Source: a virus
DNA: 35,996 nucleotides
Virus record (IMG/VR): IMGVR_UViG_3300049215_000205
Coordinates: 1-35,996 of that record
Direction: 5' to 3' (one strand)
The translations under genes were made by a program, and so were the position numbers. The number at the start of each line of letters is the position of its first letter. Positions within the stretch are counted from its first letter, which is position 1. Under the pieces are notes generated by a model. It made no database searches, had not been told where the DNA came from, and saw nothing but the letters and a program-made list of their open reading frames with translations. Below, piece after piece: positions 1-35,996 of this stretch.

Positions 1-126
1 TATTAAGATTGAAATGTGCGGTGGACACTGCGAAAAACATATTAAATTGCAAGAAAAAATTACAAATATTATCTATAACTATTGCGATCATAAAAATGTA
101 GTTCCTAGATGGGATCCAAGCACACA
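1..126. repeat. Terminal overlap, copy 1 (circular genome)
   Basis: These bases are identical to 35870-35995. The last base of the window (35996, c) differs from its counterpart at 127 (a). A reading frame opened at 35811 continues across the join and stops at 154, so the ends are contiguous in nature. The simplest reading is an assembly overlap of a circular or circularly permuted genome; a true short terminal repeat is the alternative. Confidence 0.93.
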
Positions 127-154
127 ATGCGCAGATTGTGGGGAAATTGTTTAA
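1..154 (+). CDS. MNDFTKEEL-family mini zinc protein, 3' part (start at 35811)
   Basis: This is the 3' part of a gene whose ATG is at 35811; reading starts at position 2 and stops TAA at 152-154. The joined product is about 66 residues: MNDFTKEEL at the N-terminus, a helical middle, a Y-C-x-H element, then C-A-D-C near the C-terminus. The C-x-H and C-x-x-C pair suggests one bound zinc ion. It belongs to a family with five other members in this window (starts 314, 528, 4264, 4458, 4670). The stop overlaps the next start (TAATG). Function is unknown. Confidence 0.85.
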   Translation, partial: IKIEMCGGHCEKHIKLQEKITNIIYNYCDHKNVVPRWDPSTQCADCGEIV

Positions 155-321
155 TGAATGACCTTGCTAAAAAATATATAAACTCAACTGTAAGATTTTT
201 TATATTAGATGAATTAACAAATCATTGTGGAAAAAAATTGACACCCGAGTTGGTAGAAGAAATTGCAAAAAAAATATTCTTTGACGTTAAAAAATTTATT
301 TCTGGGGATGGCAATGAATGA
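154..321 (+). CDS. Small hypothetical protein (55 aa)
   Basis: Begins MNDLAKKY at the ATG that shares an A with the previous stop (TAATG). A longer version from 109 would overlap the preceding gene by 46 bases and lacks a better ribosome site. It shares only the opening MND with the MNDFTKEEL family and has no C-x-x-C, so it looks like the family's start fused to another helical body. It ends in an 8-base ATGAATGA overlap with the next gene, which suggests coupled translation. Family not recognised. Confidence 0.7.
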   Translation: MNDLAKKYINSTVRFFILDELTNHCGKKLTPELVEEIAKKIFFDVKKFISGDGNE

Positions 322-535
322 CTTTACAAAAGAAGAACTTATTTATTTAAAAGATGGTCTTGCATTACTTGAGCAATGCGGAATGACTAAACTATTGAAA
401 AATAAAATTGAAAACTTATGGGTAAAAACTTCAAAGATGATCGATAACTATTGCGAGCATGAATTTATATGTTACGCATGTATAACAAGCGATTCAATAG
501 ACTGTATTAAATGTGAGAAAAAGATAAATGAATGA
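314..535 (+). CDS. MNDFTKEEL-family mini zinc protein (73 aa)
   Basis: Starts MNDFTKEEL at 314, inside the ATGAATGA overlap with the upstream stop. The upstream alternative start at 263 adds only sequence lying within the previous gene. The order is conserved N-terminal box, variable helix, the MIDNYCEHE element around residues 44-52, then C-x-x-C pairs in the tail. Cysteine and histidine spacing suggests zinc binding. It is a paralogue of the genes at 528, 4264, 4458, 4670 and 35811. No established function is known to me; a protein-protein or anti-host role is only a guess. Confidence 0.82.
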   Translation: MNDFTKEELIYLKDGLALLEQCGMTKLLKNKIENLWVKTSKMIDNYCEHEFICYACITSDSIDCIKCEKKINE

Positions 536-743
536 CTTTACGAAAGAAGAGCTAGAGGATTTGCTGGTATGGTCAGATATATATACAGAATTTAGAACAT
601 GCTGGACTACTAAATTTCATATGCCATTAATAAATAAAATCCAATCTATGATCGACAACTATTGCGATCATGAAAAATATCAAACTGAATTTATCTTTAA
701 AAGCGTTTGTTGCAATTGCGGGGATGTTAAAAATGATAATTAG
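528..743 (+). CDS. MNDFTKEEL-family mini zinc protein (71 aa)
   Basis: Starts at 528 with an 8-base ATGAATGA overlap with the gene before. MNDFTKEELEDLL is followed by a divergent middle, the SMIDNYCDHE element and C-C-N-C-G near the end, so it has the same C-x-H plus C-x-x-C zinc pattern as its siblings. The first 26 bases of the gene are nearly the same as in four sibling genes while the middle is not, which points to duplication and shuffling of a start cassette. Confidence 0.83.
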   Translation: MNDFTKEELEDLLVWSDIYTEFRTCWTTKFHMPLINKIQSMIDNYCDHEKYQTEFIFKSVCCNCGDVKNDN

Positions 744-918
744 TGAACAACAAGTGATGCAATTAATGAGTATTGCAAATCATTACATAGAATTGATTTC
801 ATTAATTTCAATGAATGAGATAAAGATGAATTATCCCCAAGAACACCAAGAAATAGCAGTAAGATTGCTTGCAACAATAAAAAACCAACAGTGTCAAGAA
901 TTAAATGAAATAGAATAA
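733..918 (+). CDS. Small helical protein, MIISEQQVMQL family (61 aa)
   Basis: Start MIISEQQVMQL at 733, 11 bases inside the preceding gene; the longer frame from 670 lies in that gene and lacks support. All-helical, no cysteine pair. The gene at 928 is a clear paralogue with the same first eleven residues and the same ending ELxEIE, so this is a local tandem duplication. Function unknown. Confidence 0.75.
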   Translation: MIISEQQVMQLMSIANHYIELISLISMNEIKMNYPQEHQEIAVRLLATIKNQQCQELNEIE

Positions 919-927
919 GGATATAGA

Positions 928-1095
928 ATGATAATTAGCGAACAACAAGTAATGCAATTAATTATGATTGCTAGAAATTATGCTGATGATTTGCTGCAAA
1001 GAGAAGTACAGTATCAAGTTATGGGGTTTAAAATTACGCAAATTATTAATGAAATTATGTGTCAACAATCAAAAGAACTTAAGGAAATAGAATGA
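928..1095 (+). CDS. Small helical protein, MIISEQQVMQL paralogue (55 aa)
   Basis: Reads MIISEQQVMQLIMIARNY and ends KELKEIE, TGA at 1093-1095. It is the tandem paralogue of the gene at 733, with an AAGGA ribosome site about 9 bases ahead of the ATG. It overlaps the next tiny gene by ATGA. Function unknown. Confidence 0.72.
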   Translation: MIISEQQVMQLIMIARNYADDLLQREVQYQVMGFKITQIINEIMCQQSKELKEIE

Positions 1096-1151
1096 TTAAA
1101 CGCATCATATGCTATTTCAAAGGCCATGAAGACAAAGAAATATATAAATGA
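1092..1151 (+). CDS. 19-residue peptide with C-x-x-x-x-G-H motif
   Basis: ATGA overlaps on both sides (1092-1095 with the gene before, 1148-1151 with the helicase) make this tiny frame, MIKRIICYFKGHEDKEIYK, fit exactly into the operon. The C-Y-F-K-G-H segment resembles the start of DUF1660-type small phage zinc proteins, and of the 45-residue protein at 29397, but the second cysteine pair is missing. It may be a truncated relative or only a coupling peptide for helicase translation. Confidence 0.5.
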   Translation: MIKRIICYFKGHEDKEIYK

Positions 1152-2881
1152 AGATCTTGAGACCCTACCAGCAGGAAGCTGTGAATCAATGTTGGCAAGC
1201 ATTGAAATTAAATAATGAGCCTGTGTTATTAATGGCAAGTGTAGGAGCAGGAAAAAGCCTAATGCTTGCTAATATATTATTAACCATACAAAAAGCCAAT
1301 AAAAAGGCGCTATGCCTTGTAAATAACGCTGAATTAGTAAGAAATAATTGTGAAACCTTTATAGAACAAGGTGGAACTGCATCAATATATTGTGCTGCGC
1401 TGGGAAAAAAAGATACAAATGCATCGGTGATATTTGGAACCCCTCAATCAATATTAAATGGAATTGATAAAAATGGACATATTTCAAGAATTAAATTTAA
1501 TCTTATCGTCGTGGATGAAGCGCATGCTATTAATTATCTTAATCACCGTTCTTGCTTTATGCGTATATTACGGCATTACCGACAAGAGTATCCCGCGTTA
1601 CGTCTCCTTGGAGCTACCGGTACCAACTTTAGATTCAAGGGAACAAGTATAGTAGGTGAAGATTGTCTTTTTAAGACCCAAGTAGGAAATATAACCACTG
1701 AACAGCTTATAAATGATAAGTATTTGATCGAACCAAGCTTTGAAGTTGATAAAGATTTAATTATTGACTTTTCAAATGTAAAAATCAAATCGAATGGCCA
1801 GTTTGACCAAAAACAATTGGAATTAGTGGTAGAAAAAAGTGCAAGATTGACAGAACTTATCTGCAAACAAGTCATTCATATTATGAAAAGTCAAAATAGA
1901 CGTGGCGTTTTTTTCTTTGCAACCACTAAAAAGCATGCGGAAGAGATATTTAGCCATTTGCCTGAAAGTGAATCAGCAATTATTTTAGGAGATACGCCAC
2001 AAAATGAACGTACTCAAATTCTTGACAAAGCCCGTGCTGGGTTCATTAAGTACCTTGTCAATATTGCTATCATTTCTGTTGGCGTGGATGTTCCTGCATA
2101 TGACACAATCGCTTATCTTAGACCTACAGAAAGCCTCGTTCTGCTCGTACAAACAATGGGACGTGTTTTGCGGTTGTCACCAAGCACCAGAAAAACTGAT
2201 GCACTCGTCCTTGATTTTTCAGGAAACATAGAAAGGCATCGTGATTGGGATAATCCAATATTACTTGATGCTGTTAAAAAAACCATTGATAAAGACAAGC
2301 CCTTGGTTATTAGCTGTCCTTCTTGTCTAACCATGAACACCCAAGATGCGAGGCGTTGCATTGGCACGTTGACAAAGGAAGGCGTGAATGTTGACAAAGA
2401 AAAGCCAAAACGTTGTGAATATTATTTTGAATTTAAGGATTGCTTTAATAGCAATTGCAATGCAAAAAATGATATTGCAGCAAGATTATGTCATGCATGT
2501 GGTGAAGAACTGATAGATCCAAATGAAAAATTATCTCTAGCAAAAATACAAAATAATTTAATTACAGTAGATGTTTTAGAAGCAAAATATGCATTATCAG
2601 GCACAAATCATGGGTTTAGGATAAATTGCATGTATAAATTTGCTAATGAATCTGGAAACAAGGGATGCGCTTTTGAGCATTATTCACCCATAAATGAAAA
2701 GGCAAGACGCGTATTTTACGGTAAATTTGTCAAACAACATTGTGTGGATTCCAATAAATGGTACATGCATTTGCAAAATCGCAATAAGGTTGAAGAAATG
2801 TTGCAGGAAGTAAGGACTCCTTTGTCATTGTTAATTTCCAATGAATATGAAGGGGTTAAAATTAAGAAGAAGTTTTTTTAA
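1148..2881 (+). CDS. SF2 DEAH-box helicase with C-terminal zinc region
   Basis: 577 residues. Superfamily 2 helicase motifs in order: Q-type N-terminus with RPYQQEA (about 5-11), Walker A ASVGAGKS (30-37), DEAH (123-126), GATGT motif III (155-159), motif V VGVDVP (311-316) and motif VI QTMGRVLRL (335-343). A cysteine-rich stretch (about 390-451, with C-P-S-C and C-H-A-C) should bind zinc, and an uncharacterised domain follows. Expected to unwind or remodel DNA with ATP during replication or recombination, like phage UvsW/RadD-type helicases. It overlaps the 19-residue peptide by ATGA and ends 12 bases before the next gene. Exact substrate is inferred only from family. Confidence 0.93.
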   Translation: MKILRPYQQEAVNQCWQALKLNNEPVLLMASVGAGKSLMLANILLTIQKANKKALCLVNNAELVRNNCETFIEQGGTASIYCAALGKKDTNASVIFGTPQSILNGIDKNGHISRIKFNLIVVDEAHAINYLNHRSCFMRILRHYRQEYPALRLLGATGTNFRFKGTSIVGEDCLFKTQVGNITTEQLINDKYLIEPSFEVDKDLIIDFSNVKIKSNGQFDQKQLELVVEKSARLTELICKQVIHIMKSQNRRGVFFFATTKKHAEEIFSHLPESESAIILGDTPQNERTQILDKARAGFIKYLVNIAIISVGVDVPAYDTIAYLRPTESLVLLVQTMGRVLRLSPSTRKTDALVLDFSGNIERHRDWDNPILLDAVKKTIDKDKPLVISCPSCLTMNTQDARRCIGTLTKEGVNVDKEKPKRCEYYFEFKDCFNSNCNAKNDIAARLCHACGEELIDPNEKLSLAKIQNNLITVDVLEAKYALSGTNHGFRINCMYKFANESGNKGCAFEHYSPINEKARRVFYGKFVKQHCVDSNKWYMHLQNRNKVEEMLQEVRTPLSLLISNEYEGVKIKKKFF

Positions 2882-2893
2882 ATAGGTGAAATA

Positions 2894-3298
2894 ATGAGCT
2901 TATATAATATGGTGTTTGGATTTAATGATAAATCAAGTTTTTTACTTGATATTTTGGGATTGAAAGCAGAAGACTTGCCAAGATTTAGGGATTGTTTTTA
3001 TGACAACGAAAAAAACTTAATTATTTTGCACACACGAACAGGTGGTGGAAATAGAGAATATTACGAACTTGAACATGAAAAACTTTCTGAACACCCCATG
3101 TACATAAATGATTGTGATGATAGCTACGATTGCACTTATGCAAATTTTTATTTTAAAGTTCCTGATGAACACGTAGAAAATATAAAAAAACTTTTTTCTG
3201 ATGAAACAACAATAGAACCAGGTCAAAAATGGAAAAATTTATTTAATGAAATGGATAAAAACTTAAATAAGGAAAAAATAAATGACAAAATTTATTGA
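2894..3298 (+). CDS. Conserved phage hypothetical protein (134 aa)
   Basis: A weak AGGTGA ribosome site sits 7 bases ahead of ATG. The body has TRTGGGNRE (about 48-56), the acidic D-C-D-D-S-Y-D-C-T-Y-A stretch (about 72-82) and a FYFKVP strand, a pattern I associate with a conserved protein in phage early regions but to which I can give no function. The charged tail looks disordered. It overlaps the next gene by 17 bases. Confidence 0.8.
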   Translation: MSLYNMVFGFNDKSSFLLDILGLKAEDLPRFRDCFYDNEKNLIILHTRTGGGNREYYELEHEKLSEHPMYINDCDDSYDCTYANFYFKVPDEHVENIKKLFSDETTIEPGQKWKNLFNEMDKNLNKEKINDKIY

Positions 3299-3638
3299 TG
3301 CTTTGCAATTAGACAAGGATCTATCGGGTAGATTAAAAGCTAAAATGCCATCATGTTTTAAAAACCCATTTGAAGTTAACGAATACCATATAAACGATGG
3401 TTATCTGCAGGCTTATAGGCTTCAATTAGTATGGAGTGTTCAAATTTGGTTGGATGCAGATAGATCAAGACCTACAGCGCTAGAAGATGCAAAAAAAGAA
3501 GCAGTCAGAAATTTAAAAAGAGAAATTTATAGTGAGATATATCAAAAATTAGCAGAAATTCGATTTATATTAAATAACGGTGATGTTGAAGAAGGATTAA
3601 AACAAATACAGTCCTTAATGCTTTATTTGTTTGAATAA
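3282..3638 (+). CDS. Conserved phage hypothetical protein (118 aa)
   Basis: Starts MTKFIDALQLD with AAGGAAAAAATAA just upstream, which sets the start inside the previous gene's 3' end. The centre, around RLQLVWSVQIWLDAD, is followed by a long amphipathic helix ending VEEGLKQIQSLMLYLFE. No catalytic or metal motif is seen. Probably a small early protein made with its neighbour; function unknown. Confidence 0.8.
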   Translation: MTKFIDALQLDKDLSGRLKAKMPSCFKNPFEVNEYHINDGYLQAYRLQLVWSVQIWLDADRSRPTALEDAKKEAVRNLKREIYSEIYQKLAEIRFILNNGDVEEGLKQIQSLMLYLFE

Positions 3639-3651
3639 AAGGAAAAAATAA

Positions 3652-3909
3652 ATGATTAATTTAAAATTTAATATTGGCGATAACGTGTATTTTTCTATGG
3701 GGATAGTTATAGACAAAACATACATAAAATCAATAACAATTTTTAAAAAACATATTCATTATGATTTATTTTTGGGTGGTTTTGCAAATGAAAATGAAAT
3801 ATATAAAACATTTGAAGAAGCACGTGCATTTTGTATTGGATACGAAAAAGAAAGACATAACGAAAGAATGAAAGAAATAATGAGCTGGAAGGATTCTAAT
3901 AATGAATAA
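3652..3909 (+). CDS. Hypothetical protein (85 aa)
   Basis: AAGGAAAAAATAA precedes the ATG, the same ribosome site as the gene before. The N-terminus (FNIGDNVYFSMGIVIDKTYIKSI) looks like a small beta-barrel, followed by a charged helix (EARAFCIGYEKERHNERMKE). No enzyme motif is visible. The last eight bases overlap the next gene. Confidence 0.72.
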   Translation: MINLKFNIGDNVYFSMGIVIDKTYIKSITIFKKHIHYDLFLGGFANENEIYKTFEEARAFCIGYEKERHNERMKEIMSWKDSNNE

Positions 3910-4102
3910 TTCAACAAAACAAAAACCGCGATTAGAAATTACTCCTAGGCATATATGGCTTAAACAAAGAATTGATGAATGTATAGAAGGTATTAAAAGA
4001 GCACAAGAAATAGAAGATTGGGAAGATTATAAAAAACGCCTTCTGAAATTGACCGATGAATTAAGTTATGCAACTACTGAATGGAGTAAATATTATGAAT
4101 GA
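3902..4102 (+). CDS. Hypothetical helical protein (66 aa)
   Basis: Overlaps the preceding gene by 8 bases (ATG at 3902, TAA at 3907-3909). Highly charged and helical, for example WLKQRIDECIEGIKRAQEIE. It ends in an ATGAATGA overlap with the next gene. Family not recognised. Confidence 0.68.
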   Translation: MNNSTKQKPRLEITPRHIWLKQRIDECIEGIKRAQEIEDWEDYKKRLLKLTDELSYATTEWSKYYE

Positions 4103-4271
4103 CAATACTACACAACCTATTAATTATTCTGAAATAAAAAATGCAGAAGATTATTTTAATCAACAACCCATACAGGTTCCAGAAGGCCATTTTGCGATCA
4201 TAGATCATAATAAATACAAATATACTAACGGTGAATGGGTTCAGGTTGAATGGGACAATGATGATGAATGA
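4095..4271 (+). CDS. Small acidic protein (58 aa)
   Basis: The start MNDNTTQ at 4095 lies in an ATGAATGA overlap; the longer frame from 4068 lies inside the previous gene. The C-terminus IDHNKYKYTNGEWVQVEWDN is an aromatic beta-hairpin-like motif. Like the gene at 154, it shares only the MND start with the mini zinc family. It ends in another ATGAATGA overlap. Confidence 0.68.
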   Translation: MNDNTTQPINYSEIKNAEDYFNQQPIQVPEGHFAIIDHNKYKYTNGEWVQVEWDNDDE

Positions 4272-4461
4272 TTTTACGAAAGAAGAGTTAATATCAATAC
4301 ATGAGGCTTGTCATTATTGGTATGAAGGGCTTGAAACACGTTTAATTGATAAAATACAAGACATGATTGATAAATACTGCGAGCATGAATGGGAAAATAT
4401 TTGTTGCCAATGTACACTTGATAATATTTATTGTCATAAATGCCAAAGGACATTGTTATGA
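4264..4461 (+). CDS. MNDFTKEEL-family mini zinc protein (65 aa)
   Basis: Starts MNDFTKEELISI inside an 8-base ATGAATGA overlap. Contains DMIDKYCEHEW (about 38-48), then C-C-Q-C and C-H-K-C, so three cysteine groups could bind one or two zinc ions. First of a second block of three adjacent family members, over 3.5 kb from the first block. Function unknown. Confidence 0.82.
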   Translation: MNDFTKEELISIHEACHYWYEGLETRLIDKIQDMIDKYCEHEWENICCQCTLDNIYCHKCQRTLL

Positions 4462-4673
4462 ATGAATTTACAAAAGAAGAGCTACAATATTTAATAAAAA
4501 TAATGTTTCCTGCTCCGATTGAAATGAAAATGGAAGAAATACTTTTTAATTATTATTTAGGAATGAAAATCAAATCCATGATTGAAGAAAAAGAAAAGCA
4601 GGAAAAATGTCAACATGAATGGGAATATCATATTAATGACTATTTTTGTGAAAAATGTGGAGTATGTAGATGA
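4458..4673 (+). CDS. MNEFTKEEL-family mini zinc protein (71 aa), diverged
   Basis: Starts MNEFTKEELQYL, ATGA overlap with the gene before. The usual NYC element is replaced by a lysine/glutamate-rich helix leading to KCQHEW, which keeps a C-x-H pair, then C-E-K-C-G at the end. It is the most diverged member and shows that the N-terminal box and zinc ends are kept while the middle varies freely. Confidence 0.8.
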   Translation: MNEFTKEELQYLIKIMFPAPIEMKMEEILFNYYLGMKIKSMIEEKEKQEKCQHEWEYHINDYFCEKCGVCR

Positions 4674-4909
4674 ATGACTTTACGAAGCAAGAGCTAGAAT
4701 GTTTACATAATGCTACTGATTTACAGCTTAAGAAAATTCCAATGTCGGAAAATAATAAATTAAGGCGCCAAGAGCTATTGGGAAAATTACAATCCATGAT
4801 CGATAATTATTGCAAACATAGATACACAAAATTTCTAGTTACAGACAATAGCGCATCATTTATTGATAAATGCGTAAAATGTAATGATTTAAAATTTAAA
4901 ATACAATAA
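4670..4909 (+). CDS. MNDFTKQEL-family mini zinc protein (79 aa)
   Basis: ATGA overlap with its sibling upstream. MNDFTKQELECL, then SMIDNYCKHRY and a C-V-K-C pair near the C-terminus. Last of the three tandem copies, 11 bases before the methyltransferase. C-x-H plus C-x-x-C suggests zinc binding; role unknown. Confidence 0.82.
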   Translation: MNDFTKQELECLHNATDLQLKKIPMSENNKLRRQELLGKLQSMIDNYCKHRYTKFLVTDNSASFIDKCVKCNDLKFKIQ

Positions 4910-32573: not shown

Positions 32574-32990
32574 ATGCAAGCAATGAATCATAACGAATAT
32601 GAATATTTTTTCAACGAAAGTTTGGTTGAATTAGAATCTGTTAATAAGCAGTTGGCAAAGCTTTCTTTGCGTAAAGAAGAATTAACCCAAGAAATAATTG
32701 GTGCATTACAACACGACCATGAGGGACAAAAAACTTATGAATATGACGTGTGGAAGATAGAAATTAAAACACCTGTTGTCTATTCATTAAACAAGAAACT
32801 ATATGAATCTGGAAAAGTTAACATTCCTGACAATTTTAATCCCATAAAGACTAGTATTTCCTATACTATTGACAAAAAGCTTTGCGAGCAATATATGGAT
32901 AATGCGCCTAAAGTTATTCGCGATGCCTTGATTGAGTTAATTGAGAAAAAGCCTGGGAAAGCAGGAGTAATTTTGAAGGAGCGTATTTAA
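32574..32990 (+). CDS. Conserved early protein, coiled-coil N-terminus (138 aa)
   Basis: AAGAGGTAATAAA before the ATG. A long helix (about 8-45, ELESVNKQLAKLSLRKEEL), then a beta segment (YEYDVWKIEIKTPVVYSLNK) and a helical end with KPGKAGVILKERI. First gene after the rightward promoter and coupled (TAATG) to the Sak4-like gene, so likely a recombination partner. Family function unknown to me. Confidence 0.8.
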   Translation: MQAMNHNEYEYFFNESLVELESVNKQLAKLSLRKEELTQEIIGALQHDHEGQKTYEYDVWKIEIKTPVVYSLNKKLYESGKVNIPDNFNPIKTSISYTIDKKLCEQYMDNAPKVIRDALIELIEKKPGKAGVILKERI

Positions 32991-33655
32991 TGTCTAATTT
33001 AATCGTCATACTTGGTGAAAGTGGAACAGGAAAGTCCACTTCAATGCGTAATTTGAATCCCGATGAAACCGTTGTAATTAATGTATTGTCTAAGCCCCTA
33101 CCATTTAGAGGATACAAAAACGCATACAACAAAGAAAGAAAAAATTACTTGGAATCAGATAACTACGCAATGATTTTAAAATGGTTGGACGCAATAAATA
33201 GAAATGCACCACACATTAAAACTATTGTTATAGATGATTTTAGCTTTCTAATGAACAATGAATTTATGCGCAGATGCAGAGAACGCGGATTTGATAAGTT
33301 TACCGAAATGGGCGTAAACATGTTTGAAATTCTTGAATTGTGTAAGTCATTTCGTCCAGATTTGTATTGTTATGTTATGTGTCATACAGAAAAAGACCAT
33401 GCAGGTATTATAAAACCTAAAACTGTAGGTAAGATGACTGCTGATTACGTGGGGATAGCAGAAAGAGTATCGATAGTACTTCACACACAAATAATTGACA
33501 TGCAGTATAAGTTTTTGACGCAAAATGACGGTATTCATGTTGCAAAAACTCCTATGGATATGTTTCAAGATATCTATATTGATAATGATTTGGCTGCTAT
33601 TAGAAATGTTATAGAAGGCTATTATGGCGATGAATTGGTAAAAAATGTTGCTTAA
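32990..33655 (+). CDS. Sak4-like RecA-fold ATPase (221 aa)
   Basis: Walker A GESGTGKST (9-17), Walker B TIVIDDF (78-84), then YCYVMCHTEKDH and KTVGKMTADYVGIAERVSIV, the layout of AAA_24/Sak4 phage ATPases. Sak4 proteins act with SSB in single-strand annealing. The SSB-like gene follows 25 bases on. Size matches the family. Confidence 0.85.
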   Translation: MSNLIVILGESGTGKSTSMRNLNPDETVVINVLSKPLPFRGYKNAYNKERKNYLESDNYAMILKWLDAINRNAPHIKTIVIDDFSFLMNNEFMRRCRERGFDKFTEMGVNMFEILELCKSFRPDLYCYVMCHTEKDHAGIIKPKTVGKMTADYVGIAERVSIVLHTQIIDMQYKFLTQNDGIHVAKTPMDMFQDIYIDNDLAAIRNVIEGYYGDELVKNVA

Positions 33656-33680: not shown

Positions 33681-34280
33681 ATGAGTTTTTGGGAATCAGA
33701 ATTAGGAGAAATAACAGGAACTGCGGCAGATGCTTTTACAAAAACATTTACGCAAATACCAGATGGCACAATGGCTTTGGCGCGTATTGAGTCTTTTATA
33801 ACACAGGAATACAAAAATACAGGCTTTAAATTCCTTGAGATTTTATGGTCATTAACTGACGGTGATTTTAAAGGCGCTAATGTTAAACAAAAGCTTAAAG
33901 TATTTGGTGGTGATTCAAAAGATAAAGATCCTTTACGTACAAAGCATCGTTCTTTAAACATGCTAAGACTAATTTATCAGTTATTTAATATAAAACCAAA
34001 GCATGCAAACGAGCCAACAGAAGAAGATTTATCGGTTTTTATTGGAAAAGTAGCTGGCATAAAAATACGTGAAACAGAGCCAGACCCAGCTCAAGATGGA
34101 AAGCAATATAATTGGGTGTCAGAAGTTCATGATTCAAAAGGTTTCAAATGTGAAACTGGTATAAGCGTTGTTGTGACACATACAAACAAGCAACAACATA
34201 ATTCTGATTTACATGACAATGCATTTTCAAGGAATCAAAATAAAGTTACTGCTGATGACTTGGATGATATACCGTTTTAA
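33681..34280 (+). CDS. Single-stranded DNA-binding protein, DUF669-like (199 aa)
   Basis: GGGAGAATTAA before the ATG. OB-fold-like body with PDGTMALARIESFI and GFKFLEILWSLTDGDFKGANV, and a C-terminal acidic tail ending DDLDDIPF (192-199), the partner-binding tip known in SSBs. Coats phage ssDNA during replication and recombination, working with the Sak4-like ATPase. Confidence 0.83.
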   Translation: MSFWESELGEITGTAADAFTKTFTQIPDGTMALARIESFITQEYKNTGFKFLEILWSLTDGDFKGANVKQKLKVFGGDSKDKDPLRTKHRSLNMLRLIYQLFNIKPKHANEPTEEDLSVFIGKVAGIKIRETEPDPAQDGKQYNWVSEVHDSKGFKCETGISVVVTHTNKQQHNSDLHDNAFSRNQNKVTADDLDDIPF

Positions 34281-34302: not shown

Positions 34303-34959
34303 ATGACTAGAGATATATTAACAAAGAAGATAGAGAAAGTGCAAGCGCGTACTGAAGAAAGTGCGCGCAATTACATCGGTGCCTCCGTTATTGGTTCGGA
34401 ATGCTTACGCCAAATTTGGTACGAGCTTCACGAAACCATAGCAGAGGAAGTGCCAACCAAAACACGCCGTACTTGGGCTATTGGCAAGCGCCTTGAAGGT
34501 TTGGTGCTGGATTGGCTTGAAGAGGCAGGCATTAAGATTGCGCGTGTTTGGTATGGCCTGCAATCCAATATTGTCAAGGTGTTTAAAGGACATCTTGATT
34601 CGGTATGGTTTGATAAGAATGGTGAGGCGAAAGCCATCATTGAGGTGAAAACCGCCAAAGATGCCAGTTTTAAGGTATTTGTTAAGAAGGGGGTTAAGCT
34701 TTGGAATCCGCAATATTATGCGCAAATTCAGAGCTATATGGGAATGAGCGGTATATTTAATACATATATACTTGTACTAAACAAGGATAATAGTGATATT
34801 TCCGATGAATTAGTGTCATTTGACGCTAAGTATTACGGAAGTTTGGAAAATAAAGCGTTGATGATAAGCGAAGCAAAAACGATGCCACCTAAAATAAACG
34901 GATCGCCTCTTTGGTATCAATGTAAAATGTGCAAATTCAGAAAAATTTGTCATCAATAA
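34303..34959 (+). CDS. Cas4/RecB-type exonuclease with four-cysteine Fe-S site (218 aa)
   Basis: PD-(D/E)XK core: GHLDS (Asp99), AIIEVKTAK (Glu114, Lys116) and YYAQIQSYMG (Gln141). Cys34 with Cys207, Cys210 and Cys216 has the Cas4/AddB arrangement for an Fe-S cluster. Would resect DNA ends to give single strands for SSB and Sak4. The first 400 bases are richer in G+C than the neighbouring genes, hinting at transfer. Confidence 0.85.
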   Translation: MTRDILTKKIEKVQARTEESARNYIGASVIGSECLRQIWYELHETIAEEVPTKTRRTWAIGKRLEGLVLDWLEEAGIKIARVWYGLQSNIVKVFKGHLDSVWFDKNGEAKAIIEVKTAKDASFKVFVKKGVKLWNPQYYAQIQSYMGMSGIFNTYILVLNKDNSDISDELVSFDAKYYGSLENKALMISEAKTMPPKINGSPLWYQCKMCKFRKICHQ

Positions 34960-35810: not shown

Positions 35811-35996
35811 ATGAATGACTTCACGAAAGAAGAACTAGAAATATTACAATGGGAAATTAACACGGCCATTATTAAGATTGAAATGTGCGGTGGACACTGC
35901 GAAAAACATATTAAATTGCAAGAAAAAATTACAAATATTATCTATAACTATTGCGATCATAAAAATGTAGTTCCTAGATGGGATCCAAGCACACAC
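35811..35996 (+). CDS. MNDFTKEEL-family mini zinc protein, 5' part
   Basis: ATG 35811 opens MNDFTKEELEIL; the frame runs off the window end and finishes at 154 across the circular join. The last codon here reads CAC, against CAA at 125-127. Weak ribosome site. It heads the first block of the tandem mini zinc genes. Confidence 0.85.
   Translation, partial: MNDFTKEELEILQWEINTAIIKIEMCGGHCEKHIKLQEKITNIIYNYCDHKNVVPRWDPSTH
35870..35995. repeat. Terminal overlap, copy 2 (circular genome)
   Basis: Identical to 1-126. The join restores a full reading frame, so this is the closing overlap of a circular assembly. Confidence 0.93.

Follow-up and report, generated by a model that had tools for sequence, protein, structure and literature searches.

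The window analysed here, positions 1-35,996 of the virus record IMGVR_UViG_3300049215_000205 in IMG/VR (35,996 nucleotides in all), carries six small genes whose products begin with MN(D/E)FTKxEL. We find that each of these genes is laid out as a constant start box, a variable N-terminal body, a constant mid box and a variable C-terminal tail that usually completes a putative zinc site, and that bodies and tails assort independently among related phages, near linkage equilibrium. As read from the sequences, the genes probably constitute a combinatorial small-protein system, in which halves are re-paired at the two boxes with a phage annealing protein (annealase) as the likely engine and host-target diversification as a possible outcome. 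More tentatively, they may be a dedicated intragenic diversity generator, with coding boxes kept at the DNA level as recombination joints, over 100 bodies and over 100 tails for a phage population to draw on, and a start box that acts as an all-frame terminator.

The window contig is a tailed phage, complete or nearly complete, with genes for a P22-like portal, a large terminase subunit, a helicase and a cytosine methyltransferase. Because bases 1-126 repeat bases 35870-35995 (a terminal repeat), the gene that starts at 35811 continues at 1-154. The six family genes (A to F) and two small open reading frames (ORFs) beside them are as follows.

35811..35996, plus strand: family gene A, first part; the protein of 70 residues runs over the contig ends; start box 35811-35837, mid box 35925-35960, which is the same as 56-91
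1..154, plus strand: family gene A, second part; end of the body, mid box 56-91 and tail (...QCADCGEIV)
154..321, plus strand: small ORF with the MND start only and without a mid box; terminates in the ATGAATGA of the next gene
314..535, plus strand: family gene B; start box 314-340, mid box about 425-460
528..743, plus strand: family gene C; start box 528-554, mid box 636-671
4095..4271, plus strand: small ORF with the MND start only; terminates in the ATGAATGA of the next gene
4264..4461, plus strand: family gene D; start box 4264-4290, mid box 4351-4386
4458..4673, plus strand: family gene E; start box 4458-4484, degenerate mid box 4566-4601
4670..4909, plus strand: family gene F; start box 4670-4696, mid box 4784-4819

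At the six gene starts (35811, 314, 528, 4264, 4458 and 4670), the start box is shared with at most 3 mismatches over 27 nt, while 100 dinucleotide shuffles gave 0 matches; likewise, the CxH...CxxC pattern is invariant in the alignment of all six window proteins. A preliminary description of this DNA, made from its letters, had recognized both features, and both stand; what it overlooked is the second constant box in the middle of the genes, having taken the middles to be unrelated. This mid box, KIQSMIDNYCEH, encodes K-I-x-x-M-I-D-N-Y-C-x-H and divides the N-terminal body from the C-terminal tail, and its DNA is also found among the DNA repeats of the window (families D4 and D8). The consensus of the start box is ATGAATGACTTCACGAAAGAAGAGCTA and that of the mid box is AAAATCCAATCCATGATTGATAACTATTGCGAGCAT. 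Family membership was defined by a start box MNxFTKxEL and a mid box KIxxMIDNYCxH, about 18-29 residues apart; all six window genes carry both, although the mid box of gene E is degenerate, and a mid box is recognizable in 241 of 254 complete family members. As had been described, ORFs 154-321 and 4095-4271 have only the MND start in common with the family; relatives of their bodies were looked for, and none were found. At two further loci (L009:5857-6130 and L011:6275-6515), a start box is followed by a membrane-protein-like body with neither mid box nor zinc tail.

A scan of the viral contigs in IMG/VR yielded 124 encoding stretches, and a second scan with a DNA pattern of the mid box yielded 98; together with phages found through their helicase, these gave 258 unique members of the family. 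A repeat of the viral scan with a larger alignment returned the same contigs. The relatives all come from metagenomic contigs or from one metagenome-assembled genome (MAG). Two members used as queries found no match among 50,697 records of cultured phages, and searches of Pfam, PHROGs, NCBIfam and PDB gave no consistent match, with 2 of 64 members each weakly matching one PHROG. The two-box proteins are thus an undescribed phage protein family. The genome scan for a host returned a single locus, in a MAG labelled Planctomycetota (L113, JAHFOW010000001.1), which turned out to be a phage contig, and therefore no host is assigned. That contig holds three family genes, a Sak4-like gene and a serine recombinase.

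To examine how the halves are combined, each member was divided at its mid box to give a body and a tail; 234 members were usable. A common body was found in 131 pairs and a common tail in 230 pairs, but only 4 pairs share both, where 1.1 are expected if the halves are independent; moreover, 2 of these 4 are near-identical proteins. As a control, the two halves of one body were compared in the same way and gave 85 linked pairs against 0.65 expected, while the halves of one tail gave 60 against 1.6. Since the same method detects such strong linkage within bodies and within tails, the missing linkage between them does not come from poor power. About 166 types of body and 135 types of tail are distinguished among the analysed members; the most frequent body type occurs in 10 members with 10 tail types, and the most frequent tail type in 15 members with 15 body types. 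The tail is still common in 3 of 4 pairs with body identity of at least 90%, and in 1 of 21 pairs at 75-90%. The variation within the family is one of block exchange and not of point substitution, which bears on a diversity-generating retroelement (a reverse transcriptase with template and variable repeat) as an alternative. The window genes take part in it, as the gene A tail type is found on other bodies in L022, L010 and L011 and the gene D tail on others in L092, L018 and L064, while the bodies of genes C and F are found with other tails (L007, L008 and L012; L109 and L233, respectively). Shuffling of the halves is well supported by these data.

The positions of the joints were mapped in pairs chosen on the first 12 body residues only, with windowed scores compared with those of random pairs. 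Nucleotide change-point and protein cumulative-score methods gave an uninformative bimodal output, because the boxes and the CxxC are common to all members, and windowed scores were used instead. Similarity lasts through the body in 77% of the chosen pairs, whereas only 3% are alike just past the mid box. Per-codon DNA identity drops from 0.65-0.84 to 0.30 at the last mid-box codons, and upstream of the gene it is at background right up to the ATG. The exchange units are therefore bounded by the ATG on one side and by the mid-box end on the other. Individual loci display the same edges. L265 and L081, which are 96-98% identical on both flanks, share within the variable locus only 154 bp, from the ATG to the mid-box end, and this junction recurs in L079 and L083 from other metagenomes; L029 and L267 share a block of 299 bp at 99%, which reaches from a mid box to the CEH codons in the following gene. 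Finally, the ends of phage-phage high-scoring segment pairs cluster on the boxes: 22% of them are no more than 5 nt away from one, while boxes shifted by 150-700 nt give 6% (maximum 10%). Modules were not preselected in this test; the count falls short of full independence, as some loci share a contig. In a separate case (L014:6001-6330), the long tail of a family gene runs out of frame into the apparent start of the downstream helicase, which suggests a deletion joint.

Related phages were found with the helicase of the window as the query.

1148..2881, plus strand: helicase (phrog_16), between the two clusters of family genes

Phages with a helicase 42-79% identical to it hold 0-5 copies of the family in the fetched stretch, with differing contents, against six in the window; over whole records of about 30-47 kb, the number ranges from 0 to 6. 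Copy number thus differs between related phages. The earlier proposal of a modular cassette with gain, loss and shuffling of genes holds in that copy number and content vary and breakpoints lie on the boxes, but it has to be widened: there are two boxes, and given exchange at both of them, the unit of exchange is the half gene and not only the whole gene. The relatives do not keep one set of orthologues without exchange, nor is the box under protein selection only, as halves are re-assorted and synonymous sites are conserved.

The latter point rests on codon use. In the mid box, Ser is encoded by TCC in 71% of cases against 9% in the variable parts of the same genes, and Asn by AAC in 80% against 20%; in the start box, Phe TTC stands at 61% against a background of 18%, Thr ACG at 59% against 17%, and GAC and GAG at about 60% each against 17-25%. 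Most box positions are strongly unlike background codon use (p down to 5e-64), and box DNA is thus conserved beyond its protein meaning. Furthermore, the DNA identity of the start box is 0.838 in pairs that share a body and 0.846 in random pairs, so the start box does not diverge in step with the body. The likeness of the boxes may come from homogenization over the phage pool or from direct constraint on the box itself.

The start box also terminates what precedes it. In the other two frames, ATGAATGA reads A-TGA and AT-GAA-TGA, with a stop in both; it overlaps the preceding stop at 314, 528, 4095 and 4264, and an ATGA overlap is present at 4458 and 4670, in agreement with the upstream-stop role already ascribed to the box. 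Over the family, an upstream ORF of at least 40 codons ends at one of the two start-box stops for 158 of 229 genes (69%), against 240 of 1649 control ORFs (15%). Since both other frames are stopped, any tail can precede any family gene and be closed cleanly. The family genes overlap by 1-8 nt, with the boxes within coding sequence, and a G-rich, Shine-Dalgarno-like stretch lies 8-13 nt upstream of the start.

At the protein level, CxH and CxxC are both present in 167 of 234 members, and the tail carries CxxC in 208 of them; by these motifs, zinc binding is probably usual, though not universal. A structure model of modest confidence (pLDDT, the predicted local distance difference test score, 72.7) shows a helical hairpin with helices at residues 6-22 and 26-43 and a poorly defined tail, and Foldseek found no significant PDB match to it. 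In a hairpin such as the one modelled, helix 1 begins next to where helix 2 ends; the two boxes would thus make up an invariant base, the variable body would lie at the tip, and the tail would be joined at the putative zinc site. Tails match 54 ORFs outside the family, while bodies match only one. Known domains occur as tails, namely DUF551 (L071 and L074) and a phage Tail Collar domain (L214), and the HESDG...KCGEFY tail is also carried by an Acinetobacter phage protein. The tails are hence a shared pool of portable mini-domains, and a role as adaptors in host interaction or anti-defence would fit the diversity of the sequences.

The likely engine of this exchange is short-homology recombination at the boxes by an annealing protein, since nearly all these phages, the window included, encode Sak4 or RecT. 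The relevant genes of the window are as follows.

32990..33655, plus strand: Sak4-like single-stranded DNA annealing protein (phrog_2872, E 2.5e-69), the proposed recombinase
33681..34280, plus strand: phage single-stranded DNA-binding protein (SSB; phrog_9002)
34303..34959, plus strand: Cas4-domain or YqaJ-like recombination exonuclease

Among 50 related records, Sak4 (phrog_2872) is present in 18, RecT in 19 of the other 32 and phrog_124 in 10 of the remaining 13; ERF recombinase is absent from the 32 records tested for it. Published work indicates that Sak4 anneals oligonucleotides diverged by up to 20% (PMC5928155), that Red recombines DNA 22% diverged (PMC2327257) and that the minimal efficient processing segment is 23-27 bp for Red-beta, in a study of relaxed recombination (PMC3945230). 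The two marks of relaxed recombination, a phage single-strand annealing protein and short homology at the junctions, are both found here, and we take annealase-driven recombination at the boxes as the best explanation of the re-assortment. During co-infection, the phage's own annealase (Sak4 or RecT, with SSB and exonuclease) would recombine genomes or paralogues via the short boxes; this would re-pair the halves in frame and keep the boxes alike. The products would be small zinc proteins folded as helical hairpins, in which the base is constant while both tip and tail vary, and this variation may be directed against host targets that change, defence proteins for example.

Several observations weigh against this account. 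Exact runs between two random boxes are short, with a median of 9-11 nt and at least 20 nt in only about 6-11% of pairs, and thus do not exceed the optimum documented for phage annealases. Box codon identity is barely higher within than between contigs (0.65 vs 0.59; 0.66 vs 0.64), so homogenization within genomes is weak, and the direct constraint mentioned above may be at work. In addition, phrog_124 is a broad Sak4-like profile that also matches 13 of 14 control genomes, 3 of the 50 records have no annealase match at all, and the exchange is read from sequence comparison.

The shortness of the exact runs also suits an explanation that dispenses with DNA joints, namely that the boxes are ordinary protein motifs (a helix cap, and the end of helix 2 with its zinc ligands), while recombination occurs anywhere and selection keeps the chimeras that join at domain boundaries. 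Box residues are indeed strongly conserved as protein, and the modelled helices are such that the mid box finishes at a natural boundary between domains. Nevertheless, we consider this explanation unlikely, given that the synonymous choice in both boxes opposes the codon use of the same genes, that start-box identity in body-sharing pairs is not above that in random pairs, and that the upstream edge at the ATG is not demanded by selection on the product. Alternatively, the boxes could be regulatory or translational elements of DNA or RNA, comparable to start-associated sequences, which are conserved for expression while shuffling is incidental. The position of the start box at the translation start, its coupling to the upstream stop and the Shine-Dalgarno-like stretch before it are all in keeping with this; however, the mid box, which is within the gene at some 36 codons from its start, shows synonymous conservation that is at least as strong, and identity is lost at its end. 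We therefore hold this to be improbable.

There is little to recommend a dedicated site-specific recombinase acting on the boxes. Serine resolvases do occur in 6 of 50 records, several of them near the cassettes, and in L113, but the window has neither a tyrosine nor a serine recombinase, a tyrosine integrase is present in 1 of 50 records, and it is an annealase that is almost universal instead. Least credible of all is that the chimeras are artefacts of metagenome assembly at short repeats. The provenance of the relatives and the repetition of boxes within genomes would allow for it, yet one junction is found in three separate metagenomes (L079, L081 and L083), the boxes are 27-36 nt with mismatches, and most common bodies are only 60-80% identical in DNA, which makes the exchange older than the sequences. 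Re-pairing of halves at the boxes by a phage annealase is the reading that we retain.

Other modular families of small genes lie beside this one. Two copies of one of them are present in the window.

733..918, plus strand: member of the MIISE family (MIISE...QQxxELxEIE), a box-flanked small gene
928..1095, plus strand: second copy of the MIISE family

Its members have a constant start (M[IK]ISEKQIMQLI), a constant end (NQQSEELKxIE) and mostly unrelated middles; 42 distinct ones were counted in related loci, often directly 3' of an MNDFTKEEL gene, and here too the start sequence provides upstream stops. At L062:6001-6309, an MNDFTKEEL gene bears the NQQSEEL end motif on its tail, an apparent fusion across the two families. 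A further modular family begins with MIDY(D/E)KL and contains the segments PKYEVGxxVW and LYPSREALIEAQIEYW (e.g. L254, L266 and L124); it has a tail in common with L033. Serine resolvase genes, several of them near family genes, are located at G027:C1:11046-11447, G024:C1:615-1019, G042:C1:27450-27851 and L113:10769-11369.

Several known systems resemble the one described here in part. In the promoter early stem-loop (PeSL) cassettes of T4-type phages (Arbiol 2010; Comeau 2014; as represented in the citing work PMC4503421), short repeated DNA between small genes has likewise been proposed to drive shuffling by recombination in gene-dense variable regions. PeSLs are intergenic promoter and stem-loop elements that shuffle whole genes; here, the genes overlap, the boxes are coding, one of them lies mid-gene, and half-genes are exchanged. 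The start-associated sequences (SAS) and extended SAS (ESAS) of Cluster K mycobacteriophages are also repeated at the starts of many small non-structural genes, sometimes with an upstream stop, but they lie upstream of the start codon, resemble ribosome-binding sites and have no mid-gene partner, and re-assortment of bodies and tails is not reported there (PMC3203893); in our family, the conserved DNA begins at the ATG. Ea22 of lambdoid phages (PMC10834534, PMC7093339) shares the design of a conserved front with dissimilar C-terminal domains, and DUF551 is a portable tail in both. Its sequence is unrelated, however, with a few variants of a larger protein, and a second DNA box, tandem copies or an equilibrium of N- and C-terminal halves are not described for it; the six window proteins have no Pfam match to the Ead_Ea22 N-terminal or coiled-coil signature. 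Finally, fragment exchange within phage proteins (PMC10684548) and the joining of short diverged sequences by annealases (PMC3945230, PMC2327257) are both documented, although the domain-shuffling work concerns core host-interaction functions and large modules, unlike the constant junctions of this unnamed small-protein family. Linkers that mediate phage mosaicism are thus an old idea, while fixed coding joints that re-pair the halves of small proteins to near linkage equilibrium are undescribed as far as we found in the literature.

Taken together, our results place phage mosaicism, which is usually described between genes, inside genes and at fixed joints; sampling of the family was dense enough to reveal near linkage equilibrium between the halves of a 70-residue protein. 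The question of short shared linkers versus illegitimate joining in phage mosaics can now be tested directly, since both the boxes and the annealases occur naturally and the readout is clear. The portable tail pool may in turn account for many orphan small phage genes, and it supplies candidates for host-interaction or anti-defence roles.

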